In this document: positions 9,752-61,158 of the stretch, in pieces
Numbering within the stretch: the first letter of the stretch is position 1
Layout of the letters: each line of letters opens with the position of its first letter
DNA from: Massilia sp. Root335
Lineage (GTDB): Bacteria; Pseudomonadota; Gammaproteobacteria; Burkholderiales; Burkholderiaceae_D
Direction: 5' to 3'
Assembly (NCBI RefSeq): GCF_001425685.1
Contig: NZ_LMCY01000026.1
Location: 277,590 to 341,589, forward strand
DNA length: 64,000 bases
The notes under the pieces: generated by a model
Database searches by the model: none
What the model saw: only the letters and a program-made list of their open reading frames with translations
Told to the model about the DNA's origin: nothing
Position numbers and translations under genes: made by a program

Positions 9752-10351
9752 GTGGGCCGCACCATCTGGCACATCAGATCGAAAACCCCCAACCACGAGG
9801 CAAAAGTGCAGATCGAAAAAAAGCAGAACCACAGCACCCCGTCTTCGTTTGCAGCCAAAAGCAGCGGAACGAAGGTGGCCCAGGAATATGCCGCAACTTT
9901 CCCAACCCGGCTTGCGCTGGCGCGCTGGACGCGCGGTGGCGACATCCCGCATGTACATTGTTTCGAACACCAGCTACCGATGCGCGCCGCTTGGTATGAG
10001 CAGGCACAACGCCGCTTCCAGGCGTGGCTCGAGGCCGGTGGCTTTCATGAGCCCGAACCGGGTTCGCTTGATAGCGTTATCGCCGACACGCCGCAGGAAG
10101 CCAACAAGAACACCGTGCTCAGCAGGAAGTTCGTCGTGCATGGCGGTCCGCGTTCGGCCTCGCGGCCGTCGGACACATCGTCCGGCGACTTTCCATCCAC
10201 GTCGCCCGCTCGGCATGCCGCCCCGGATACGAACGGCCCGGCACTCGAAGGCGACGACACGCATCACCGTCAGGACACGTCCGGCATGACGCCGCCTTCG
10301 CGCCCTGACATGCAATCGTTTTCAACTGGATCCGGCGGCACCCAAAAATGA
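9752..10351 (+). CDS. Hypothetical protein, 199 residues, unknown function
   Basis: An isolated plus-strand frame that opens with GTG at 9752, preceded by AGGA six bases upstream. Third-position GC is high in this frame, especially in the C-terminal half. The stop codon is immediately followed by a perfect terminator (10352-10375), which is the best evidence that it is a real gene. The N-terminal third is basic (IRSKTPNHEAKVQIEKK). The middle contains RAAWYEQAQRRFQAWLEAGG, a probable amphipathic helix. The last 70 residues are low in complexity and rich in Ser, Thr, Pro, Gly and His (probably disordered). I recognise no domain, signal peptide or membrane segment. The true start may be at the internal MRAAWYEQ. 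Confidence 0.5.
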   Translation: MGRTIWHIRSKTPNHEAKVQIEKKQNHSTPSSFAAKSSGTKVAQEYAATFPTRLALARWTRGGDIPHVHCFEHQLPMRAAWYEQAQRRFQAWLEAGGFHEPEPGSLDSVIADTPQEANKNTVLSRKFVVHGGPRSASRPSDTSSGDFPSTSPARHAAPDTNGPALEGDDTHHRQDTSGMTPPSRPDMQSFSTGSGGTQK

Positions 10352-54153: not shown

Positions 54154-55086
54154 TTACTCCGCCGCCACCGGATGCAGCGCCTTCTCGATATCCGACTTGG
54201 TAAAACCCTGGGCGAAACGCTCGATGAAATCGTAGGCATACGCGCGCAGATAGGCGCCGCGGCGCACCGCCAGCCGCGTCACGTTCGGCGCGAACAGATG
54301 CGACGATTCGATCGCGCGCAGGCCGCGGTCGCGGCCGTGGTCGAACGCCATCGAGGCGACGATGCCGACGCCCATCCCCAGCGACACGTATTGCTTGATG
54401 ACGTCGGAATCCATCGCCGTCAGCATGATGTCGGGACTCACGCCGGCGGCGGCGAACGCAGCATCGATGTGGCTGCGGCCGGTAAAACCCACGTCGTACG
54501 TGATCAACGGATGTTCGGCGAGGTCGGACAGCTTGATCGGCGACTGCGACAGCAGCGCATGGCCGTCCGGCACGACGACGAGGTGGCTCCAGCGATAGCA
54601 CGGGAATGACACGAGGCCGGGGAACGCGGACAGGCCCTCGGTCGCGATGCCGATGTCGGCGCGGCCCGACAGCACCCATTCGGCGATGTGTTCCGGCGCA
54701 CTCTGCTGCAGGGCGATGCGCACGCCCGGGAACGCCGTACGGAACGCCTGCACGACCTGCGGCAGCGCGTAGCGCGCCTGCGTGTGGGTGACGGCGACCG
54801 TGAGCGTGCCGCTGTCCTGCGCGGCGTATTCGCTGCTGGCCTGCTGCAGGTTCTCGGCCTCGACGAGCAGGCGCTCGACGATCCTGAGGATGCCCTTGCC
54901 CGGGTCCGTGAGACCGGTCAGGCGCTTGCCGTTGCGCTCGAAGATGACGACGCCCAGCTCGTCCTCCAGTTCGCGGATCTGGCGCGACACGCCCGGCTGC
55001 GACGTGAACAGGGCATTGGCCACGTCGGTCAGGTTGAAATTGCGGCGCGCGGCTTCGCGCACCGAGCGCAACTGCTGGAAATTCAT
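54154..55086 (-). CDS. cysB: LysR-type regulator of sulfur assimilation (CysB/Cbl type)
   Basis: 310 residues. The N-terminal winged helix ([20 protein letters not shown], then [20 protein letters not shown]) matches CysB more closely than generic LysR. The effector domain has the [12 protein letters not shown] motif for the sulfate or O-acetylserine site. It overlaps the end of cysA (ATGA), so the regulator is in the operon it presumably activates. CysB activates sulfate-uptake and sulfur-assimilation genes when sulfur is limiting, with N-acetylserine as inducer. Cbl is a possible alternative name. Confidence 0.9.
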
Positions 55087-56156
55087 ATGCCGTCTCCCTG
55101 GTCGACGAATACGTGCATGCGCCTGGGTTTGACGAGCAGCGTCTCGCCGTCGCGCAGGCCGAGTTCGCGGTAGCGCTCGTTGGGAATCACCGCCTCGATG
55201 ATCTGGGCATTGTCGGCGCGCTCCAGGTCGAGCTGGGCCAGCGGGCCGATCGCGTGCGCGCGGCGCAGTTTCACCGCGACGCCCTCGCCGCCGGGCACGT
55301 AACGCTCGACGTCGAGGTCGTGCGGACGGACGTAGGCGATGCCTTCACCGTTCTGCACGTTGGCGTACTGGGGCGCGTGGAACGTGGCGTCGCCGCTGGC
55401 CAGCACGCCTTCGTGCACGCGGCCGTGGAACAGGTTGACGTTGCCCAGGAAGCCGTAGACGAATGGCGACGCGGGGTGGTTGTAGACGTCGGCCGGCGTG
55501 CCCAGCTGCTCGACGTGGCCCTTGTTCATCAGCACGACCTGGTCCGCCACTTCGAGCGCTTCTTCCTGGTCGTGGGTGACGAAGATCGACGTCACGTGCA
55601 ATTCGTCGTGCAGCTGGCGCAGCCAGCGCCGCAACTCCTTGCGCACCTTGGCGTCGAGCGCGCCGAACGGTTCGTCCAGCAGCAGCACGCGCGGCTCCAC
55701 GGCGAGCGCGCGCGCGAGGGCGATGCGCTGGCGCTGGCCGCCCGAGAGCTGCGGCGGGTAGCGGTCGGCGATCCAGTCCAGCTGCACGAGCTCCAGCAGC
55801 TTTTTCACTTTTTCGCGGATCTGCGCTTCGGACGGGCGCTCCTTGCGCGGTTTTACGCGCAGGCCGAACGCGACGTTCTCGAACACCGTCATGTGCTTGA
55901 ACAGCGCGTAATGCTGGAACACGAAGCCGACCTGGCGCTCGCGCACGTGGCGTGCCGACGCATCGTCGCCGTCGAGCAGCACGCGGCCCGCGTCCGGGAA
56001 TTCGAGGCCGGCGATGATGCGCAGCAGCGTGGTCTTGCCGCAACCGGACGGGCCGAGCAGCGCCGTCAGCTCGCCGTCGGCGAACTTCAGCGAGACGTCG
56101 TCCAGGGCCGTGAACTGGCCGAACTGCTTGCGGATATGTTGGACTTCGATCGTCAT
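55083..56156 (-). CDS. cysA: Sulfate/thiosulfate ABC transporter ATPase CysA
   Basis: 357 residues from [20 protein letters not shown]. Walker A is GPSGCGKTT (35-43), the ABC signature is [16 protein letters not shown], and Walker B is [11 protein letters not shown]. The C-terminal TOBE-like domain (about 240-357) is characteristic of the CysA/MalK class. It starts 2 bases after the cysW stop and overlaps cysB at its end. Confidence 0.95.
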
Positions 56157-56158
56157 GT

Positions 56159-57073
56159 TCAATGCTCCGTGGTGTGACCCTGCACGCTGGCCTTGTGGGC
56201 CCGGTGCATGCGCCATTCGATAAAGGTTTTCACGGCCAGGGTCACGAGGGCCAGCAGCGCCAGCAGCGACGCGATCGCGAACGCGGCCGTGAAGTTGTAT
56301 TCGTTGTAGAGGATCTCGACCTGCAGCGGCATCGTGTTCGTTTCGCCGCGGATGTGGCCGGAGACGACGGACACGGCGCCGAACTCGCCCATCGCGCGGG
56401 CGTTACACAGGATCACGCCGTACAGCAGGCCCCATTTGATGTTCGGGAGCGTGACCTTGAAGAAGGTCTTCCAGCCGGACGCGCCCAGCACGAGGGCCGC
56501 CTCTTCCTCCTCGCTGCCCTGCGCCTGCATCAGCGGGATCAGTTCGCGCGCGACGAACGGGAACGTGACGAAGACGGTCGCCAGCACGATGCCGGGCACG
56601 GCGAACAGGATCTTGATGTCGTGGTCCATCAGCCAGGGGCCGAACCAGCCCTGCGAACCGAACAGCAGCACGTAGATCAGGCCCGCGATCACGGGCGAGA
56701 CGGAGAACGGCAGGTCGATCAGCGACAGCAGGATGCTCTTGCCGGGAAAGTCGAACTTGGCGATGGTCCAGGCCGCGGCCACGCCGAACACGAGGTTCAG
56801 CGGCACCGCGATGCCGGCCGCGATGAACGTCAGTTTGATGGCGGACAGCGCGTCCGGATCGAGGACGGCTTCCTTGTACGTGTCCCAGCCTTTCCTGAGC
56901 GCTTCCGTGAACACGGCGACGAGCGGCACGAACAGGAACAGCGTGAGGAAGGCCAGCGCCACGAAGATCAGCGCGTAGCGCACCCAGGACGGCTCCAGCG
57001 CATTGGTCGCCTTGCGCGGCGCCGGTGCGGCGGCGGCCTTGTCTTTCAGTTGATTGTCGAGGACGGCACTCAT
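56159..57073 (-). CDS. cysW: Sulfate ABC transporter permease CysW
   Basis: 304 residues from [20 protein letters not shown]. Six predicted membrane helices (about 30-285) with the EAA loop [20 protein letters not shown]. The N-terminal helix is [19 protein letters not shown]. It pairs with CysT in the inner membrane. It starts one base after the cysT stop. Confidence 0.95.
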
Positions 57074-57074
57074 G

Positions 57075-57917
57075 TCACTTCCCCGCACGCTTGCGCGCCC
57101 AGGCCTGCAGCAGGTTGATCGTCAGCAGCAGCAGGAACGAGACGAGCAGCATCACGACGGCGATGGCCGTGGCGCCCGTGTAGTCGTACTGCTCCAGCTT
57201 GGTGATGATGAACAGCGGCGTGATCTCGGACACCATCGGCATATTCCCCGCGATGAAGATCACGGAGCCGTATTCGCCGGTGGCGCGCGCGAACGCGAGG
57301 GCGAAGCCCGTCAGCAGCGCGGGCACGATGCTCGGCAGGATGACGCGGACAAACGTCTGCCACGGGCCGGCGCCCAGGCTGGCGGCGGCCTCTTCCAGCT
57401 CGCGTTCGGCGTCTTCCAGCACCGGCTGCACCGTGCGCACGACGAACGGCAGGCCGATGAAGGTCAGCGCGATGACGACGCCCAGCGGCGTGAACGCGAC
57501 CTTGATGCCGGCCTTTTCCAGGTATTGCCCGATCCAGCCGTTGGACGAATACAGCGCCGTCAGCGTGATGCCGGCGACCGCCGTCGGCAGCGCGAACGGC
57601 AGGTCGACCAGGGCGTCGACGAAGCGCTTGCCGGGGAACTGGTAGCGCACGAGCACCCACGCGACGATGCCGCCGAACACGACGTTGATCGCGGCGCCGA
57701 TCAGCGCGGCGCCGAAGCTCAGCCGGTACGACGCCATCACGCGGTCGGACGTGACGGCGCCGACGAATGCATCCCAGCTCATCGTGAACGTCTTGAGGAA
57801 GATCGCCGACAGCGGGATCAGCACCAGCAGCGCCAGATAGAAAATCGTGAACCCGAGCGACAGTCCGAAACCGGGAATCACCCGGTTGGCGCTGTTACGG
57901 GATAGTAAATTGGTCAT
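57075..57917 (-). CDS. cysT: Sulfate ABC transporter permease CysT
   Basis: 280 residues with AAGG six bases before the ATG. Six membrane helices, with the EAA loop [20 protein letters not shown]. It is the first gene of cysT-cysW-cysA-cysB. No periplasmic sulfate-binding protein (Sbp/CysP) gene precedes it, so the receptor must be coded elsewhere. The upstream element at 57974-58005 is shared with the exporter gene. Confidence 0.95.
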
Positions 57918-57973
57918 CGCACGCCTTATTACAATTTCTTCTAACGGAACGAGATCATCGCACTGGAATCGAA

Positions 57974-58005
57974 TATTACAAACGAAACATTCCTCATTTG
58001 CATAG
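57974..58005 (-). promoter_or_regulatory. Shared 32-base element upstream of cysT, candidate CysB site
   Basis: On the minus strand the core is GCAAAT-G-AGGAA-T-GT-T-TCGTTTGT. It matches the element at 58880-58911 at 25 of 32 positions in the same orientation, and lies 57 bases upstream of the cysT ATG. CysB binding is inferred from the genes it precedes. Confidence 0.6.
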
Positions 58006-58036
58006 ACGATTCCCGTATTAGCGATCCCAGAAGCAG

Positions 58037-58060
58037 GAAAGGCGCCTTGCGGCGCCTTTC
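58037..58060 (-). terminator. Terminator between the TauE-type gene and cysT
   Basis: GAAAGGCGCC-TTGC-GGCGCCTTTC, a perfect 10-bp stem just after the exporter stop. No strong T-run on the minus strand. Confidence 0.7.
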
Positions 58061-58062
58061 GT

Positions 58063-58836
58063 TCAGTGGAGCAGCTTGACCGCCACTCCCGCCAGCGTCA
58101 TCGCCAGCACGCCCCGTAATACCTTTTCCGGTACGGCCCGGGCCGCCCAGGAACCGAGTGTGATCCCTGGCAACGAGCCGATCAGCAGGGTCAGCAGCAG
58201 GGCCCAGTTGATCGACCCCAGCCACCAATGGCCGACCGCGGCGATGGCGGTCAGCGGCACGGCATAGGCGATGTCGGTACCGGCGACCTCGGCCGGTGTC
58301 AGGCGCGGATACAGCATGACGAGCAACGTGGCCCCGATGGCGCCCGCGCCGATCGACGAGATCGTCACCAGCGTGCCCAGCAGCGCCCCGGACGCGACCG
58401 TGGCCGCGACCAGGCCGCGCCCCTGCAGCTGGCGCGACGGGCTCGCGTTGACCCAGGCAAGCATCTTGCCGCGGAACAGGATGGCGACGACGGTCAGCAG
58501 CACGGACACGGCGATCGAATAGCGGATGATCTTGCCGATCGCGGCATTGAGCGGGCCGAAGTACTGCAGCGCCAGGGTGGCGACGAGTGCCGCGGGCAGC
58601 GCGCCCAGGCACAGGCGGCCGACGATATCCCAGTGGACGGTGCCGCGCGAACGGTGGGTGACGGTGCCGGCGCTCTTGGTGATCGAGGCGAAGGCGAGGT
58701 CGGTGCCGACGGCGACGGACGGCGCGACGCCGAACATCAGCGTCAGCAGCGGCGTCATCAGCGAACCGCCGCCGACGCCGGTCATGCCGACCAGGACGCC
58801 AACGGCGAATCCCGACAAAATGTATGTAATGGACAT
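58063..58836 (-). CDS. TauE/SafE-family sulfite or sulfur-compound exporter
   Basis: 257 residues with GGGGG upstream of the ATG. About eight membrane helices. The two family motifs are VGMTGVGGGSLMTPLLTLMF (about 16-35) and the second, less conserved repeat ISSIGAGAIGATLLVMLYPR (about 160-180). TauE/SafE proteins export sulfite, sulfoacetate or other organosulfonates. Association with the cys genes and the shared upstream element suggest that it handles sulfur in sulfur-limited cells; the direction of transport cannot be fixed from sequence. Confidence 0.88.
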   Translation of the reverse strand: MSITYILSGFAVGVLVGMTGVGGGSLMTPLLTLMFGVAPSVAVGTDLAFASITKSAGTVTHRSRGTVHWDIVGRLCLGALPAALVATLALQYFGPLNAAIGKIIRYSIAVSVLLTVVAILFRGKMLAWVNASPSRQLQGRGLVAATVASGALLGTLVTISSIGAGAIGATLLVMLYPRLTPAEVAGTDIAYAVPLTAIAAVGHWWLGSINWALLLTLLIGSLPGITLGSWAARAVPEKVLRGVLAMTLAGVAVKLLH

Positions 58837-58879
58837 GCTTTACCCCCAGGTTGGCTCCAAGGGTAATGGTCCTCAACCG

Positions 58880-58911
58880 TAAAACAAACGACACGTTCCT
58901 TATTTGCTTAT
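58880..58911 (-). promoter_or_regulatory. Shared 32-base element upstream of the TauE-type gene, candidate CysB site
   Basis: On the minus strand the core is ATAAGCAAATAAGGAACGTG followed by TCGTTTGT. It lies 44 bases upstream of the exporter ATG and is the counterpart of the element at 57974. Confidence 0.6.
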
Positions 58912-58936
58912 GCGGGCCGTGCGTGATCCCGGCGTT

Positions 58937-58964
58937 ACGCGTGGGCTCGGGGAGCCCACCCTAC
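58937..58964. repeat. REP hairpin with compensatory stem change, left of pair
   Basis: CGCGTGGGCTCGGGGAGCCC followed by ACCCTACG. Stem GGGCTC/GAGCCC replaces GGGCAC/GTGCCC of other copies, with both strands changed. Confidence 0.75.
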
Positions 58965-59023
58965 GTGGCCGTGACTTACGATCGAATGCGGCGGCGAATT
59001 CGGTCCCCAGGTTTCATCCGGGC

Positions 59024-59049
59024 CGTAGGGTGGGCGGCCTCCGCCCACG
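59024..59049. repeat. REP hairpin with compensatory stem change, right of pair
   Basis: CGTAGGGTGGGCGGCCTCCG followed by CCCACG, inverted relative to 58937. Stem GGGCGG/CCGCCC. It lies 20 bases downstream of the peroxiredoxin stop. Confidence 0.75.
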
Positions 59050-59069
59050 ATGCATGCCGTGTACGCCGA

Positions 59070-59708
59070 TTATTTGTTCGGCTGCGGCGTCAGACGCAGA
59101 TACGGCTTCGGCGCGCTGAAACCTTTCGGATATTTCTGCTTGAGCTGCTCCGGATCCTGAATGGTCATCGGGATGATCACGTCGTCGCCATCCTTCCAGT
59201 TGCCCGGCGTCGCCACGGTGTAGCCGTCGGTCAGTTGCAGGGCGTCGATCACGCGCAGCACCTCGTCGAAGTTGCGGCCGGTGCTCATCGGGTAGGTGAT
59301 GGTCAGGCGGATCTTCTTGGCCGGATCGATCACGAACAGCGAGCGCACGGTCGCCGTGGCCGACTGGTTCGGGTGGATCATGTCGTACAGTTGCGAGACC
59401 GATTTATCGGCGTCGGCGATGATCGGGAAGCCGACGACGGTCTGCTGGGTTTCCTCGATATCCTTGATCCATGCCTTGTGCTGGTCGGCCGGGTCGACGG
59501 ACAGCGCGATCGCCTTGACGTTGCGCTTGTCGAATTCCGGCTTGAGTTTCGCGGTCAGGCCCAGTTCGGTCGTGCACACCGGCGTGAAGTCGGCCGGGTG
59601 CGAGAACAGCACGACCCACGAATCGCCCGCCCACTCGTGGAAACGGAGTCGGCCGATGGTGGAATCCTGTTCGAAATCCGGAGCCGTGTCGCCCAGGCGT
59701 AAAGTCAT
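59070..59708 (-). CDS. Prx6-type (1-Cys) peroxiredoxin
   Basis: 212 residues with a perfect AAGGAG before the ATG. The active-site motif HPADFTPVCTTELG has the peroxidatic cysteine at 45. The long C-terminal domain (about 165-212, GYTVATPGNWKDGDDVIIPM, then PKGFSAPKPYLRL) is typical of the Prx6 group. No conserved resolving cysteine is apparent. It reduces hydrogen peroxide and organic peroxides. It is 56 bases upstream of the REP-containing spacer and lies after dgkA on the same strand. Confidence 0.93.
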   Translation of the reverse strand: MTLRLGDTAPDFEQDSTIGRLRFHEWAGDSWVVLFSHPADFTPVCTTELGLTAKLKPEFDKRNVKAIALSVDPADQHKAWIKDIEETQQTVVGFPIIADADKSVSQLYDMIHPNQSATATVRSLFVIDPAKKIRLTITYPMSTGRNFDEVLRVIDALQLTDGYTVATPGNWKDGDDVIIPMTIQDPEQLKQKYPKGFSAPKPYLRLTPQPNK

Positions 59709-60291: not shown

Positions 60292-61077
60292 ATGAAAATG
60301 GAAACCCCAGAACCGGCCAAGACTTCCATCCAGGTGATCGAGCGCATGGTGGCGCTGCTCGACGTACTTGCCAGTTTTCCCGATCCCGTCAGCCTGAAAG
60401 AGTTGTCGAAGATCTCGGGCCTGCACCCGTCCACGGCGCACCGCATCCTGAACGACATGGTCGTGACGCGCTTCGTCGACCGCGTGGAACCGGGCACCTA
60501 CCGCCTCGGCATGCGCCTGCTCGAACTGGGCAACGTGGTCAAGAGCCGGCTGTCCGTGCGCGAAGCCGCCGTCGACCTGATGCGCGCGCTGCACAACAAG
60601 ACCAAGCAGACCGTCAACCTGTCGGTCCGCCAGGGCGACGAGATCGTCTACATCGACCGCGCCTTCTCCGAGCGCTCCGGGATGCAGGTCGTTCGCGCGA
60701 TCGGCGGCCGCGGCCCCCTGCACCTGACGTCGACCGGCAAGCTGTTCCTGTCGATCGACGAACCGAAGGCGATCCGCGCCTACGCCACGCGCACGGGCCT
60801 CGCGGGCCACAACAAGAATTCGATCACGGACCTCACGCGCCTGGAGCGCGAACTGTCGCTCGTGCGCGCACGCGGTTACGCGCGCGACAACGAGGAACTG
60901 GAACTGGGCGTGCGCTGCATGGCGGCCGGCATCCACGACGACAGCGGCAAGCTGGTGGCGGGGTTGTCGATCTCGGCGCCGGCGGACCGGTTGCAGGACG
61001 ATTGGCTGGAAGACCTGGTGACCACGGCGGCGCAGATTTCCGCGACGCTGGGCCACCGGGTGGGCGGCGCCAGCTGA
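60292..61077 (+). CDS. IclR-family transcription regulator
   Basis: 261 residues. The N-terminal winged helix (about 10-75) contains LKELSKISGLHPSTAHRILN. The C-terminal IclR ligand domain (about 90-255) has YIDRAFSERSGMQVVRAIGG, PLHLTSTGKLFLS and CMAAGIHDDSGKLVAGLSIS. It probably responds to a small aromatic or carboxylic acid, but no catabolic operon is near. No strong ribosome-binding site precedes the ATG. The last coding unit HRVGGAS plus stop is repeated downstream (61055-61158). Confidence 0.88.
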   Translation: MKMETPEPAKTSIQVIERMVALLDVLASFPDPVSLKELSKISGLHPSTAHRILNDMVVTRFVDRVEPGTYRLGMRLLELGNVVKSRLSVREAAVDLMRALHNKTKQTVNLSVRQGDEIVYIDRAFSERSGMQVVRAIGGRGPLHLTSTGKLFLSIDEPKAIRAYATRTGLAGHNKNSITDLTRLERELSLVRARGYARDNEELELGVRCMAAGIHDDSGKLVAGLSISAPADRLQDDWLEDLVTTAAQISATLGHRVGGAS

Positions 61078-61158
61078 TAGACCGGGTGGGCGGCGCCAGC
61101 TGAAAGACCGGGTGGGCGGCGCAAGCTGAAAGACCGGGTGGGCGGCGCAAGCTGAAAG
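61055..61158 (+). repeat. Four 26-base tandem repeats across the IclR stop codon
   Basis: Unit ACCGGGTGGGCGGCGCCAGC plus TGATAG or TGAAAG. Copies start at 61055, 61081, 61107 and 61133. The first codes the last residues of the regulator and its TGA; the later three are non-coding. Units 3 and 4 share a C-to-A change (GCGCAAGC). Confidence 0.92.

Follow-up and report, generated by a model that had tools for sequence, protein, structure and literature searches.

A conserved upstream element links a TauE/SafE-type permease gene of Massilia to a putative CysB-type sulfur-assimilation regulon

The window analysed here, the whole 64,000-nucleotide stretch from Massilia sp. Root335, carries on its minus strand a gene for a TauE/SafE-type permease (hereafter TauE), followed by cysT, cysW, cysA and a gene for a CysB-family LysR regulator, these last four presumably being transcribed as one operon (Table 1). 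TauE scores 144 bits against PF01925, above the gathering score of 32.6, which places it in the TSUP (TauE/SafE) family. The three transporter genes pass the cut-offs of their models, and the cysA product scores 425.9 against the CysA equivalog NF008105, below the cut-off of 502. The original prediction had placed a CysB-type regulator in the operon adjacent to TauE, and the regulator indeed passes the cut-off of the CysB family model NF009327; against the CysB equivalog NF009326 it scores 376.2, below the cut-off of 436. PADLOC returned no match. Inspection by eye also revealed inverted GTAGGGTGGGC-type repeats at 58939-59050, in the stretch that separates the peroxiredoxin gene from TauE and possibly of a dispersed intergenic kind, and, at about 61056-61155, a unit of about 26 bases repeated in tandem about four times at and after the end of an IclR-type gene.

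Table 1. Features of the TauE-cysTWA-cysB region, in window coordinates.
Feature	Position	Strand	Basis or remark
CysB-family LysR regulator	54154..55086	-	NF009327 455.7 bits, cut-off 402
cysA	55083..56159	-	TIGR00968 (sulfate ABC ATPase subfamily) 395.1 bits, cut-off 342.75
cysW	56159..57073	-	TIGR02140 425.9 bits, cut-off 329.1
cysT, sulfate ABC permease	57075..57917	-	TIGR02139 422.7 bits, cut-off 246.1
Putative -10-like hexamer GATGAT, cysT leader	57954..57959	-	aligned leaders; inferred; spacing as in TauE leader
Shared 32-base element, cysT leader	57974..58005	-	matrix rank 1 in window
GC-rich hairpin of 10 pairs between TauE and cysT, terminator-like, poor T tract	58037..58060	-	fold z -3.49
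TauE/SafE-type (TSUP, PF01925) permease, 257 aa	58063..58836	-	Pfam PF01925 E 7.6e-42
Putative -10-like hexamer TACCCT, TauE leader	58860..58865	-	aligned leaders; inferred; fixed spacing behind TauE box
Shared 32-base element, TauE leader	58880..58911	-	25/32 identical to cysT copy; matrix rank 2 in window
1-Cys peroxiredoxin, adjoining TauE upstream in the cysT-type arrangement	59070..59708	-	own leader without box here

The leaders of cysT and TauE share a 32-base element in the same orientation. Counted by eye, the two copies are identical at 25 of 32 bases and end 57 (cysT) and 44 (TauE) bases before the start codons; a tied register four bases further upstream (57978-58009 against 58884-58915), found by script, likewise gives 25 of 32, with distances of 60 and 47 bases. 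The script also returns 25 of 32 as the top ungapped 32-mer match between the two leaders. None of 3000 dinucleotide-preserving shuffles of leader pairs reaches 25, the maximum being 23, and the original claim of a 25-of-32-identical element at 57 and 44 bases agrees with the recount. When the pattern proposed with that claim is searched with up to three mismatches through the 7.11-Mb genome, as the original prediction suggested, only these two leaders match, and a reversed control gives none.

Alignment of the leaders outlines a TauE box of roughly ATAAGCAAATAA-N7-GTCGTTTG and a cysT box of roughly CTATGCAAATGA-N7-TTCGTTTG, starting about 46 and ending about 18 bases ahead of the putative -10-like hexamer. 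A sigma-70 consensus scan finds no consensus promoter at these leaders, which fits, without proving, an activator-dependent promoter. The hairpin between TauE and cysT is strong, so the two genes may form separate transcripts; a terminator consensus scan called none between them. An Rfam search of positions 57700-59200 yielded a single sub-threshold miRNA match (E 0.3) outside the element, which therefore shows no sign of being an RNA element.

Other cys genes of the genome carry the element too. A cysI-DUF934-cysH-cysD-cysN-cysG cluster lies on contig C43, identified by family search and reading, with the middle gene names taken from sequence inspection. A matrix built without any site of this genome scores the cysI leader at 44.4 (next in its 20-kb stretch, 10.8) and the leaders of the two sbp genes at 32.3 (sbp1; next 20.0) and 27.3 (sbp2; next 14.4). 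With TauE leaders also removed from the matrix, the values are 28.5 (next 9.3), 24.8 (16.9) and 22.3 (6.5). The element is common to the cysT, cysI, sbp1, sbp2 and TauE leaders of one genome. The original reading implied that it should recur before further cys genes; it is present at the cysI operon and both sbp genes and, among relatives, in cysT and sbp leaders of other Oxalobacteraceae.

The TauE box of this genome is most like the cysI box. A TauE-box pattern, composed after the TauE and cysI leaders had been inspected, occurs at four places in the 7.1-Mb genome with up to three mismatches, exactly only before TauE and cysI; the remaining two, each with three mismatches, are the cysT leader and a site on contig C52, the latter possibly a chance match given that one is also obtained with the reversed control. 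With 150 of 457 candidates scored, a genome profile search with a 54-base sequence model from 25 of 51 collected leaders recovered nothing beyond the two sites of the window and passed over the boxes of cysI and sbp, so the cys-gene leaders were examined singly; this outcome speaks against easy genome-wide detection of the box. No clear box was seen in stretches of C18, C48 (near 12 kb) and C8 (two stretches) that hold SsuA-family or nitrite/sulfite-reductase matches. Elsewhere on C48, a weaker box (L100:7235-7288; score 17.3) precedes a flavoprotein gene (start 7352), which may be AprA-like, followed by a gene for an SsuA-family binding protein; this locus is a possible further regulon member.

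The box was then sought across relatives: from 80 named loci that encode a close CysT, leaders of cysT, sbp and TauE were taken at 30 loci of Oxalobacteraceae type. A first matrix of 54 columns, which excludes the window, was built from 27 leaders of cysT and sbp genes whose loci lack this TauE neighbour. When both strands of the window are scanned with it, the top score falls on the cysT leader (41.5) and the next on the TauE leader (24.4), the third site scoring -7.9. One cysT leader in the training set (L036) has no box, scores -17.3 and was omitted from later matrices. Among 11 TauE leaders, the six of Massilia type, the window included, stand out at 1.7 to 24.4, and five Duganella leaders, at -10.8 to -16.4, do not. 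As a control, 15 of 16 peroxiredoxin leaders lack a site. The exception, in a Massilia genome (L006), has a similar box before its 1-Cys peroxiredoxin gene (score 2.5), so that the peroxiredoxin, too, seems able to enter the regulon.

A later matrix, blind to TauE leaders, includes cysT and sbp leaders from TauE-bearing loci. It places 41 of 47 distinct TauE leaders (60 minus 13 duplicates by protein) above the 99.99% background level, a level exceeded by 77 of 2350 shuffled leaders. Passing leaders comprise 20 of 20 before cysI, 19 of 24 before cysT and two of three elsewhere. Two Duganella TauE leaders (L022 and L061) were shifted by 7 bases by hand and are absent from the matrix without TauE leaders. 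The 54-base site, which comprises the box and the -10 region, ends 20-23 bases ahead of the ATG in 45 of the 47 distinct leaders, and in the aligned leaders the box is conserved across genera while its flanks differ. On sequence grounds, the shared element is real, is conserved as regulatory sites are and is part of what appear to be cys promoters; the original proposal of a regulator site is strengthened by this conservation and by its recurrence at several such promoters.

Of 294 genomes of the family, 239 have a TauE match at E 1e-60 or better, and in the order Burkholderiales 57 of 150 genomes have one at E 1e-50 or better. Gene order was compared in 20 neighbourhoods from 19 genera of the family and in 20 outside it, hand-chosen among the matches listed rather than at random, one per genus or family where possible, and probed with cys, Sbp, Prx, DGK and IclR proteins. 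In 20 of the neighbourhoods retrieved, the TauE relatives are 74-88% identical and have cys genes next to them. Within the family, TauE stands directly before cysI in 15 of the 20 chosen neighbourhoods (a CysB-type gene lies divergently in 13 of these) and before cysT in the remaining five; the order before cysT also occurs in the window, where TauE precedes cysTWA instead of adjoining cysI or cysH, and in 10 of the 80 named CysT loci. Outside the family, TauE adjoins cysI or cysH in 18 of the 20 chosen neighbourhoods and a divergent CysB-type gene is found in 15; in 10 of these 20 loci, no site scores higher with the matrix than the one directly before TauE.

TauE appears more strongly tied to the cys regulon than the original prediction could see, because it lies directly before cysI in many relatives. 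It has the look of a long-standing gene of the cys regulon, controlled by an activator of CysB type. Its history is not simple: the best tree of 47 TauE proteins requires five changes of location, which suggests that TauE or its promoter probably moved more than once. Of these changes, well-supported branches force only two, which concern the cysT group; as to the cysI group, 26% of bootstrap trees show a single change. On these figures we do not propose one clean transfer of TauE. Two further loci show related arrangements. At L139, a box scoring 27.9 (10162-10215, minus strand) precedes what appears by eye to be an alpha/beta hydrolase-like gene, located between a diacylglycerol-kinase-like gene and peroxiredoxin, a place taken by sbp in other loci. 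L114 (1441-1500) holds, again by eye, a rearranged cluster (the end of a CysB-like gene, peroxiredoxin and TauE) whose TauE leader resembles the cysT type.

The search of the genome yielded two CysB-family proteins, which share 55% identity overall and 71% over the first 65 residues. The window's protein is 44% and the other paralogue 45% identical to E. coli CysB. Both keep T100, T102, T149, E150, Y164, W166 and Y197, residues linked to N-acetylserine in a CysB structure paper (PMC11329422); they differ at positions 202 and 227, the window's protein having S for A at 227. According to the same paper, E. coli CysB activates from sites that lie upstream of the -35 region and have their centre 50-60 bp ahead of the start; the consensus of its sites is very weak, and LysR regulators often act on a divergent neighbour (PMC11329422). 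When the box core was compared with known E. coli CysB promoters over about 155,000 positions, the cysK leader ranked 1 and tsuA 9, and the other seven leaders (including cysJ, cysP, cysD, sbp, tcyP and tauA) were not outstanding, the E. coli consensus itself being weak. As the E. coli promoters match the box only weakly, we name the binder CysB-type rather than CysB. No report of TauE as a CysB target in these bacteria was found in titles and abstract openings among the matches listed, and a term search of PMC10179380 gives no mention of TauE or sulfite.

Several other accounts of the box can be weighed against this evidence. That it is a chance likeness or a dispersed repeat has nothing in its favour except the short length of the element, and the shuffled pairs, the two places matched in 7.1 Mb and the conservation across genera together make this extremely improbable. 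The box before TauE might also be a passive leftover of a move between operons, its regulatory function since lost. The five location changes in the best tree, two of them forced, do indicate that the gene and pieces of its promoter have moved; the fixed distance between site and start codon in 45 of the 47 distinct leaders, amid differing flanks, nonetheless renders such a relic very unlikely. An alternative compatible with our preferred explanation is that the second CysB paralogue, encoded divergently from cysI, binds the box, alone or together with the window's CysB and perhaps in response to other effectors. The divergent CysB-type gene at 13 of the 15 TauE-cysI neighbourhoods, the resemblance of the TauE box to the cysI box, the differences at residues 202 and 227 and the habit of LysR regulators of acting on divergent neighbours (PMC11329422) make this quite possible, if somewhat less than probable. 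However, DNA-binding regions that are 71% identical over 65 residues, together with cysT and TauE boxes identical at 25 of 32 bases, leave shared binding as likely as a division of labour.

No solved structure among those searched has a usable sequence relationship to TauE (best E 0.065), Foldseek returned nothing at E 0.001 or better for the TauE model, and no solved TSUP structure appeared among the matches listed in the structure searches. In a second look, the predicted fold of TauE (58063-58836) matched BacA/UppP at Z 11.6 and 10.8, the next match being 4.5; the match at Z 11.6 has an rmsd of 4.4 over 226 residues with 8% identity. This likeness of a predicted model may be an arrangement common among helical proteins.

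The distribution of sulfur carriers bears on the direction of transport, for which the original prediction had allowed both a sulfite safety valve and an importer. CysT above its family cut-off is absent from 26 of the 57 TauE-bearing Burkholderiales genomes, and 11 of the 57 have neither CysT nor a SulP match. In all 11, TauE lies beside cysH and cysN; a CysI match is strong in two, weak (28-30% identity) in eight and missing in one, and EI24, the family of E. coli CysZ, has no match in five. The carriers searched for in these genomes were CysT, SulP and EI24/CysZ. Given the lack of CysT and SulP, sulfur must enter these 11 organisms by another carrier, and TauE is a candidate at hand; its position by cysH and cysN there favours import over export. 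Two observations count against import. The Massilia genome is already equipped with SulT, two sbp genes and three SulP matches, so that an extra importer is not obviously needed; and TauE and CysT co-occur (odds ratio 2.9, p 0.003), a result that also rules out mutual exclusion of the two.

TauE/SafE proteins of sulfonate-degrading bacteria are, as the family name says, sulfite exporters. The same regulon could accordingly be read in the opposite direction, with TauE as a safety valve through which sulfite would leave the cell whenever more of it is made than sulfite reductase can handle. Besides the family name, the position of TauE beside cysI, whose product uses sulfite as substrate, and the SulT and SulP carriers already present in this genome agree with such a role. 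Against it, activation under sulfur shortage would, by simple reasoning, waste sulfur; the genomes without CysT and SulP, in which TauE lies beside cysH and cysN, need an importer; and a TSUP protein of a cys operon is reported to import sulfate (PMC5840216). We consider the safety valve unlikely, at a level that still deserves attention.

Import under a cys-type promoter is the account we prefer. Direct computation gave the box and its conservation, its occurrence at several cys promoters and the order of neighbouring genes. From these we infer that the shared element would form the upstream portion of a promoter that belongs to the sulfur-assimilation (cys) regulon and depends on an activator. 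A LysR regulator of CysB type would most likely bind the box just upstream of the -35 position and recruit RNA polymerase to the -10 sequence at fixed spacing, presumably on sulfur limitation. TauE would be an old member of this regulon, directly before cysI in many relatives; in the Massilia/Duganella group it stands before cysTWA-cysB with its own promoter box. The cys-type box and the position before cysI in many relatives suggest that TauE is probably a sulfur-assimilation transporter, perhaps an importer, most likely of sulfate (or sulfite) under sulfur shortage, and its label as an exporter appears doubtful. Taken together, it is probable that the element marks a cys-regulon activator promoter with a CysB-type binder, and that TauE is an old member whose permease brings in sulfate or sulfite rather than exporting waste.

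Beyond the original prediction, the analysis adds two points: TauE has long been a neighbour of cysI, and there is reason to doubt its label as an exporter. A wider proposal is tentative, and we would place it just short of even: that, throughout Burkholderiales, the 'sulfite exporter TauE/SafE' beside cysI imports sulfate or sulfite under CysB control and, where SulT and SulP are missing, is the chief route by which inorganic sulfur enters the cell, and that in the Massilia group the gene switched cys clusters and kept a CysB-type box. Across a bacterial order, these results connect a defined regulon and pathway step with members of a transporter family that is large and poorly characterised, and they call a common annotation (sulfite exporter TauE/SafE) into question. 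They also pinpoint 11 genomes where TauE may be the importer of inorganic sulfur, and provide a box that can be used to list the regulon of this bacterial group.

The arrangement described here shares features with three known systems. With the TauE/SafE sulfite exporters of sulfonate-degrading bacteria it shares the Pfam family PF01925, and unlike them TauE here lies beside assimilatory cys genes. In contrast to the E. coli CysB regulon, where no TauE/SafE-named gene is annotated in the K-12 stretches examined and where the sites, of very weak consensus (PMC11329422), offer no clear match to the Massilia box, TauE appears to be a regulon member here. The likeness to the CysB regulon of E. coli and Salmonella, as described in PMC11329422, lies in a LysR regulator with N-acetylserine pocket residues, in putative targets that include sulfate uptake and sulfite reductase genes, and in a putative site upstream of the -35 region. 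A further parallel may be CysZ of C. glutamicum, which PMC5840216 presents as a TSUP-classed sulfate importer encoded in an assimilatory sulfate-reduction operon; TauE is like it in class and, in many relatives, in its gene context. The regulation differs, in that C. glutamicum cysI is listed under McbR and CysR, not CysB, in PMC2580772. Unlike CysZ, the TauE gene of the window precedes cysTWA and has a box of its own.
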